Shown here piece after piece: positions 4,608 through 22,830 of a DNA stretch of 64,000 bases. The stretch spans positions 60,121 to 124,120 of the forward strand of contig CAIFEB010000003.1 of the NCBI GenBank assembly GCA_903789375.1. The letters are read 5' to 3'. A program made the position numbers and the translations under genes. The DNA comes from an uncultured Eggerthellaceae bacterium (GTDB lineage: Bacteria; Actinomycetota; Coriobacteriia; Coriobacteriales; Eggerthellaceae). Position 1 is the stretch's first letter; every line of letters starts with the position of its first letter. The notes under the pieces are model-generated. The model ran no database searches and had not been told where the DNA came from. It saw nothing but the letters and a program-made list of their open reading frames with translations.

Positions 4608-5159
4608 CTAGGCGATCCGGGCGCCCGCGATGCTCGAGAGCTCCCCCGCTCCCGCGACCGCGTCGGTGCGTTTCTGCGCCTGCATGCGCGCAAGCTCGTC
4701 CTCGTCCATGAGGCGCAGGCTCTTCGTCAGGCACGCCTGGACGCACGCCGGGCCCTCCGGACGGTCGACACACAGGTCGCACTTGATGACGTAGGCCTTC
4801 TCGTGTGTGCCGAACACCTCGCAGCCCGCAACCAGCGGCTCGGTCCGCGTCACGATGTCGACGGCGCCGAACGGGCACGCCATCACGCAGCTGCGGCATC
4901 CGATGCACCGCTCCTGGCGGATGGCCACGCGGTGGTTCGCCGGGTCCTCGTAGAGCGCGCCAACCGGGCATGCGTTCACGCACGGCGCGTCCATGCAGTG
5001 ATGGCACGCGACGGGCGCGGACACCGTAAGCGTGTAGGTGACGCTCAGGCGAGGAATCGCCATCTCTCCCCCGCGATCGTGCTTCGCCAGACAAGCCGCC
5101 ATGCACGTCTTGCAGCCGATGCACACGCCTGGATCGGGGACGATAAATTTGTTAGCCAA
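4608..5159 (-). CDS. HydN/HycB-like 4Fe-4S electron-transfer protein
   Basis: A 183-residue cytoplasmic ferredoxin-like protein with four cysteine clusters typical of the HydN/HycB/DmsB family: CIGCKTCMAAC near residue 13, CHHCMDAPCVNACPVGA, CIGCRSCVMACPFGA and CDLCVDRPEGPACVQAC. These should hold four [4Fe-4S] clusters. The start is a TTG at 5159 with AGGAGG upstream. It precedes fdhF by 37 nt and likely shares its promoter; in enterobacteria HydN supports formate dehydrogenase H. It probably carries electrons from formate oxidation to a partner not present here. Confidence 0.93.
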   Translation of the reverse strand: MANKFIVPDPGVCIGCKTCMAACLAKHDRGGEMAIPRLSVTYTLTVSAPVACHHCMDAPCVNACPVGALYEDPANHRVAIRQERCIGCRSCVMACPFGAVDIVTRTEPLVAGCEVFGTHEKAYVIKCDLCVDRPEGPACVQACLTKSLRLMDEDELARMQAQKRTDAVAGAGELSSIAGARIA

Positions 5160-21685: not shown

Positions 21686-21815
21686 GAGCCCTCCTTCGTT
21701 GGGCCGATGCGCCGCGCCCGCGGCGGCATCCGTATCGGGTGAACCGTTTTCGCCCACGGCAGCGAGAGCAGGCGGCGCCGAGACCGTGCGGCCTGCGGGG
21801 CCCCGCAACAAAAAA

Positions 21816-21863
21816 AGACTCATGGCGCAGAGCCGAGGCGAATCGGCCCTGCGCCATGAGTCT
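21816..21863 (-). terminator. Intrinsic terminator of the terC leader (riboswitch expression platform)
   Basis: A perfect 15-bp stem, AGACTCATGGCGCAG pairing with CTGCGCCATGAGTCT across 21816-21830 and 21849-21863, with an inner GCCGA/TCGGC pairing. On the minus strand it is followed by seven T residues (21816-21810). It lies 130 nt before the terC start and no gene precedes it on that strand, so it is a leader attenuator. Confidence 0.92.
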
Positions 21864-21956
21864 GGTTATCTCAGACATGCCAGGTGCGGTGAGCACCACG
21901 ATGTTGACATGCCCCGTGTCGGACTGCGTCCGGCCGCGCCAACTACTCCCCCATGG
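21854..21956 (-). promoter_or_regulatory. yybP-ykoY (manganese) riboswitch aptamer
   Basis: Reading the minus strand from 21956, the conserved words appear in order: GGGGAGUAG (21951-21943), a P2 arm with hairpin CGGAC-GCA-GUCCG, GUCAACAU, a hairpin GUGGUGCUCACCGCAC, and GAGAU near the 3' end. P1 pairs CCAUGGG (21956-21950) with CUCAUGG (21860-21854). The 3' strand of P1 is also the first arm of the following terminator, so Mn2+ binding should block termination and turn terC on. The family is known to sense Mn2+; the fold here is read by eye. Confidence 0.88.
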
Positions 21957-22038: not shown

Positions 22039-22830
22039 ATGACGGACAACACGCTCACCGCTCTCGACAGGCTGCTGCACATCTGGCAGCCCGATTACAA
22101 CAACCGTCAGGGCAACGTCAACTACCTCGACCAGGGGTCGCTCACCCGTCCCCAGAAGATGCCGCGCAACCAGATGCTCATCGCGGCTGCCATCATCGCA
22201 GTCGGGGCGATCATCGGCATCGTGTTCCTCTACAACACCATCTGGGCATCGTACCAAGCCCGCGTCCAAGAACAGCAGAACGTCGCGCAGAACCTCGAGC
22301 GCACAGGCGCTCTCGCCACCGTTCCCGCCATGTCGAGCATCGTCGGGCTGAGCGATGCGGACATCCTCGACTCGTTCGACGAGCAGGGTTACCAGATCGT
22401 CGACGTCGGGTCCGACGACACGGGTCTTTCCGTCTACCGCATCCCTGCCGATACTTCCACGGCCGAAGCGGCCATCCTGCTCGCCGGCGGCATCGGGTCG
22501 CTCACCGCATCGCAGGCCACGCAGATCCTCAACGGCGCATGGTACCTGTCGACCGATTCCACGGCCGGCACCTACGTCATGCGCTACGTGGACTTCGAAT
22601 CCGACTCGCCCGAGGCGGCGCTCGAGGCGGCGCTCGCCAACCAGGGCTTCAGCAGCTCGTCCATCCAGGATTCCGGCGTAGATGACGCGGGCAACACGTA
22701 CGCGACCGGCACCGGCGTGATCGGCGACTCCACGCGCACGTGGAAGATCTCGACCATTCCATTCTCGGACGCGTACTCCATCGCGGGCATGCCCGACAGC
22801 GCCGTGTACGTGGGCATCCGCGTGTCATAA
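22039..22830 (+). CDS. Single-pass membrane protein of unknown function
   Basis: A 263-residue protein that I do not recognise. Residues 1-45 are hydrophilic, residues 46-69 form one strong membrane helix, and the remaining 195 residues are likely extracytoplasmic, Ser/Thr/Asp-rich and nearly free of Cys. The ATG at 22039 follows AGGAG. Codon use resembles its neighbours, so it looks native rather than acquired. It is divergent from the manganese-regulated terC and shares the short region with the GTATCATG dyad; a functional link is possible but unsupported. Confidence 0.8.
   Translation: MTDNTLTALDRLLHIWQPDYNNRQGNVNYLDQGSLTRPQKMPRNQMLIAAAIIAVGAIIGIVFLYNTIWASYQARVQEQQNVAQNLERTGALATVPAMSSIVGLSDADILDSFDEQGYQIVDVGSDDTGLSVYRIPADTSTAEAAILLAGGIGSLTASQATQILNGAWYLSTDSTAGTYVMRYVDFESDSPEAALEAALANQGFSSSSIQDSGVDDAGNTYATGTGVIGDSTRTWKISTIPFSDAYSIAGMPDSAVYVGIRVS

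Follow-up and report, generated by a model that had tools for sequence, protein, structure and literature searches.

A probable yybP-ykoY Mn2+ riboswitch without helix P4 upstream of terC in an uncultured Eggerthellaceae bacterium

Introduction

The yybP-ykoY riboswitch of L. lactis yoaB (PDB 4Y1I; PMC11087558, PMC9190785) has helices P1 to P4, the loops L1 and L3 and a sensing adenosine, and it is an ON switch whose switch helix P1.1 is common to an intrinsic terminator. Competition between P1.1 and the terminator has been demonstrated in this system (PMC11087558), and a P1 shared with a terminator is the usual mechanism in this class. The X. oryzae member also controls transcription. In its solved structure P4 completes a four-way junction, L3 reads ACAUACU with the sensing adenosine in third place, and the A-minor receptor pair is C44=G66 (PMC6754395). 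N7 of the sensing adenosine (X. oryzae A48, L. lactis A41) binds Mn2+ (PMC6754395). According to the summary in PMC9495176 of Martin et al. (2019), the yybP-ykoY riboswitch of Streptococcus mgtA forms a three-way junction; there, in the Firmicutes, Mn2+ activates transcription of a P-type ATPase gene.

In this study, we analysed a 64,000-nt stretch of DNA from an uncultured Eggerthellaceae bacterium (the window). Its minus strand very probably carries, at 21956-21810, the Coriobacteriia form, without helix P4, of a yybP-ykoY (Mn2+) riboswitch whose expression platform is a terminator. The element shares with L. lactis yoaB the loops L1 and L3, the sensing adenosine and a P1.1 helix common to the terminator, and by analogy it would also be an ON switch; in contrast to yoaB, it has a 6-nt linker in the place of P4. 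Its L3 begins with ACAU as in X. oryzae, with the adenosine again third, and differs in the last three nucleotides. The predicted three-way junction likens it to Streptococcus mgtA as described in that summary. Our additions are modest: a P4-less form across a whole clade, and its total miss by the Rfam cut-off in the class.

Anatomy of the element

As shown in Table 1, the aptamer fold spans 21956-21854 on the minus strand, and the intrinsic terminator overlaps its 3' end. About 120 nt separate the element from terC. The features of yybP-ykoY members that we found were the L1 internal loop, with GGAGUA opposite (G)AGA between P1.1 and P1.2, the L3 adenosine, the helices P1.1, P1.2, P2, P3.1 and P3.2 with covariation in all of them, a P1.1 3' strand that competes with a terminator as in transcriptional members, and a location before a Mn2+ homeostasis gene (the known set being terC, mntP and P-type ATPase). 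Helix P4 and the four-way junction of the solved structures were absent, and P2, which is well formed in homologues, was imperfect in the window.

Table 1. Positions of the predicted riboswitch features and of terC in the window
Feature	Position	Strand	Basis or remark
P1.1 switch helix, 5' strand CCAUGGG	21950-21956	-	pairs with 21854-21860
L1, 5' strand GGAGUA	21944-21949	-	GGAGUA in 95/95 aligned elements
P1.2, 5' strand GUU	21941-21943	-	pairs with AAC 21867-21865
P2 hairpin	21914-21940	-	five pairs, each with both-side changes across homologues
P3.1, 5' strand GGCAUGUCA	21905-21913	-	covaries
L3, putative metal loop ACAUCGU	21898-21904	-	contains A21902
P3.2 hairpin, GGUGC-loop-GCACC	21883-21897	-	five pairs, each with both-side changes
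P3.1, 3' strand UGGCAUGUC	21874-21882	-	folding and covariation
Linker UGAGAU in the place of helix P4	21868-21873	-	6 nt in 91/95 elements
P1.2, 3' strand AAC	21865-21867	-	covariation
L1, 3' strand CAGA (canonical GAGA)	21861-21864	-	homologue alignment
P1.1, 3' strand CUCAUGG, common to the terminator	21854-21860	-	sequence, folding, overlap counts
Intrinsic terminator hairpin, 20-21 bp	21816-21863	-	5' arm 21863-21843, 3' arm 21836-21816
Terminator 7-T run	21810-21816	-	sequence and terminator scan
terC, 302 aa	20777-21685	-	PF03741 TerC, E 7.2e-44

A sequence-only reading of this DNA had named the riboswitch class, terC as the regulated gene, a P1 pairing of CCAUGGG with CUCAUGG, and three conserved words. 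Homology and covariation both point to the class, and the Pfam match agrees with the gene. The pairing was confirmed, and two of the words, GGGGAGUAG (21951-21943) and GUCAACAU (21908-21901), lie in order on the minus strand. The third, GAGAU (21872-21868), sits in the UGAGAU linker between P3 and P1.2; it is not the conserved word, because the GAGA, AAGA or CAGA of homologues directly precedes the P1 3' strand, where the window has CAGA.

The core nucleotides could be matched to solved structures. A21947 is the counterpart of the A-minor base A10 of X. oryzae, for which L1 roles have been described (PMC6754395), and G21862 and A21861 correspond to G93 and A94 of the same RNA. A21902 is the counterpart of the Mn2+-sensing adenosine, and C21906-G21881 that of the A-minor receptor pair. 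A sigma-70 consensus scan gave no promoter match, and a genome-wide search found no further copy of the element in the window's genome. The window TerC was 64-69% identical to TerC from five other Coriobacteriia. A divergent 263-aa gene with no Pfam match (22039-22830, plus strand) adjoins the terC leader.

Conservation across homologues

The same layout of words, P1 and terminator was seen again before terC in independent genomes. A covariance model (R1) was built from six homologous leaders, of which the window was one. Of the 398 genomes sampled from the class, 118 contained the element, usually upstream of terC or mntP. It also recovered the E. coli mntP riboswitch (L012:1965-2073), which was outside the training set (30.2 bits, E 9.5e-5). 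This member has the same L1 and L3 words as the window; it differs in carrying a P4 hairpin and in having no detected terminator that overlaps P1.

We then examined an alignment of 95 elements, including E. coli mntP. Standard pairs occupied 91.3% of the pair cells, compared to 74.2% in shuffled controls and at most 47% with the partners slid; since the alignment was fitted to R1, these counts lean towards the model's own pairs, but the margin over the slid controls is wide. Changes on both sides were seen in 24 of 29 pairs. In P1.1 they affected five of seven pairs, with 93.8% of cells paired, and P1.2 appeared as GUU/AAC, GUC/GAC, GCU/AGC and GCA/UGC. The pair at C21906-G21881 was invariant (93/93), and the position of A21902 was A in all 95 elements. 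The L1 3' strand was most often GAGA (59 elements) or AAGA (30); CAGA occurred in five, the window among them, and GAUA once. One leader (L005) was first read as having no L3 (CACCAGCAAGG), which hinted at another ligand; in the model alignment its sensing adenosine is retained.

A linker in the place of helix P4

The linker was 6 nt long in nearly all elements, with the consensus U(G/U)AA(A/U)(U/C) in the Coriobacteriia set. The four exceptions were one linker of 7 nt, two deeper-branching ones of 10 nt, and the 21-nt linker of E. coli mntP, whose P4 hairpin occupies the site of the window linker. A linker at this site is predicted to give a three-way junction throughout the window's order.

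An absence of P4 could have been an artefact of searching with a P4-less model, so RF00080 was also run over the class. Its matches in the window's order coincided with those of R1, except for two (G355 and G389), both of which have no core words, and its P4-bearing matches fell in the deeper families only. These deeper families mostly bear P4, with L105 as an exception. In a sample of the phylum searched with RF00080, the linkers of other Actinomycetota were longer and in most cases held a clear P4 hairpin; in four elements (L127, L131, L137 and L139) folding gave just a weak one. From these distributions, the loss of P4 looks derived within the window's order.

The missing helix does not disqualify the element, because a three-way member has been reported in Streptococcus according to the summary cited above; given that precedent, the Coriobacteriia form fits within the known class as a sub-form shared across the clade. 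None of the papers searched linked a yybP-ykoY riboswitch to Coriobacteria or Eggerthella. A stronger proposal is that the sub-form is distinct, with P4 already gone in the order's ancestor and the conserved linker making tertiary contacts of its own that aid docking or alter the affinity or selectivity for metal; we regard this as rather unlikely. The many natural P4-less aptamers would offer a simple system in which to ask what P4 does in L1-L3 docking.

Downstream genes and the ligand

The gene 3' of the element was terC in 53 of the 95 cases and mntP in 34 (including E. coli), which leaves 8 others. One protein of each unusual kind was searched against Pfam, and the rest were identified by visual comparison with closely similar sequences. 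The eight comprised one P-type ATPase, three CASTOR/POLLUX-type channels, two Na/Ca exchangers and two cases in which the contig ended too soon for a gene to be assigned, so that the readable genes among them encode cation transporters or channels. The CASTOR/POLLUX-type channel (L092:1701-1815, L093:1701-1793 and L101:1701-1792; PF06241, E 6e-18 for the L093 protein) is an atypical gene to follow a Mn2+ switch. The elements before Na/Ca exchanger genes (L097:1701-1797 and L100:1701-1798; PF01699 for the L097 protein) are deeper-branching and have the L3 variant GUCAUC. One genome has two riboswitches about 3 kb apart (L085:1701-1796 and 4638-4754), one followed by mntP and the other by a P-type cation ATPase gene.

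The same architecture and ON logic might serve a different or second divalent ion such as Ca2+, with selectivity altered by the loss of P4. According to PMC9495176, citing Martin et al. (2019), the three-way Streptococcus mgtA element had a higher in vitro affinity for Ca2+ than for Mn2+, and a few distant relatives of the window element sit before Na/Ca exchanger and CASTOR/POLLUX channel genes. However, the Mn2+-specific adenosine is invariant and nearly all elements lie upstream of terC or mntP, which are Mn2+ homeostasis genes. We consider another physiological ligand improbable. For the yybP-ykoY reading with Mn2+, the ligand, the docking without P4 and the ON direction are what we infer from relatives.

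Competition between P1.1 and the terminator

The 7-T run of the terminator was found where the sequence-only reading had placed it, but the stem, given there as 15 bp, measured 20 bp in the terminator scan and 21 bp on folding. Sequence, folding and the scan agreed with its claim that CUCAUGG lies wholly inside the 5' arm. Across the alignment, the P1.1 3' strand was within a terminator in 61 of 95 elements, compared to 14 of 475 shuffled downstream controls. By gene, the overlap was seen in 43 of 53 terC leaders, 15 of 34 mntP leaders and 3 of the rest. Six mntP leaders (L017, L024, L031, L033, L036 and L048) had no detected P1-sharing terminator; theirs was a separate one, some 25-40 nt farther downstream. 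These results suggest that many mntP leaders use a different expression platform.

The P1.1 and terminator folds are mutually exclusive. When the growing transcript was folded in steps, the probability of P1.1 was about 0.9 once the aptamer was complete, dipped while the terminator 5' arm and loop emerged, and was back at about 0.9 until 21826. It fell to about 0 after the 3' arm passed 21824, and forcing P1.1 at full length cost about 18 kcal/mol. Since the terminator wins at equilibrium, the decision must be kinetic.

Under low Mn2+, the P1.1 3' strand and the GA strand of L1 would both pair into the terminator, and RNA polymerase would halt at the 7-U run. Under high Mn2+, L1 and L3 would dock around the ion via A21902 and keep P1.1 closed, so that the terminator could not start and terC would be transcribed. 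Docking would have to hold P1.1 long enough against strand invasion, as in L. lactis (PMC11087558). The same Mn2+-ON logic had been proposed in the sequence-only reading. Homology and covariation support it, as does the mechanism established in L. lactis (PMC11087558).

An ordinary terminator or attenuator that senses no ligand, with the aptamer as a decayed relic, would fit the great strength of the terminator, seen in the cost of forcing P1.1, as well as the imperfect P2 and the CAGA in L1. It accords poorly with the intact core nucleotides and core helices P1.1, P1.2 and P3, with the dominance of P1.1 until the terminator 3' arm is largely transcribed, and with the R1 score of the window, which is among the four best over 398 genomes, although the window was a training sequence. 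A relic is highly improbable.

Detection by Rfam and homologue-built models

The points against a riboswitch reading are the sub-gathering Rfam score, the lack of P4, the CAGA in place of the common GAGA, the imperfect P2 of the window, an alignment fitted to R1, and the failure of the sigma-70 scan to match a promoter. An RF00080 search had been proposed as a check on the element, with the lack of a significant covariance-model hit as its refutation. An Rfam scan of this region in gathering mode was empty, so that at the Rfam cut-off the refuting outcome did literally occur, whereas E-value mode gave a full-model match at 18.8 bits (E 0.0026 for 351 bases and 4227 families). This falls short of the gathering score, which at 45 bits is a database threshold and no biological feature. 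The known member E. coli mntP scored 41.6 bits, also under this threshold, and E. coli alx was not listed by RF00080 at E 1. As a test, a cut-off of 45 is too stringent, and the low score does not disqualify the window element, because both E. coli members fail it too.

R1 scored the window, which is in its training set, at 84.3 bits (E 2.9e-18 per genome). Over the same 398 genomes RF00080 found 16 at E 0.01 and none above its cut-off. Annotation pipelines that rely on this cut-off will overlook the Coriobacteriia leaders; by the present analysis, terC and mntP would be under Mn2+-responsive control in a major gut-bacterial clade where the cut-off reveals no such element. A chance meeting of three short words and a terminator would agree with the empty gathering scan, but it has a negligible probability and is already refuted by the class-wide R1 matches and by covarying homologues at the same gene in many genera. 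In E-value mode the terminator also matched microRNA families, by chance, owing to its long hairpin.
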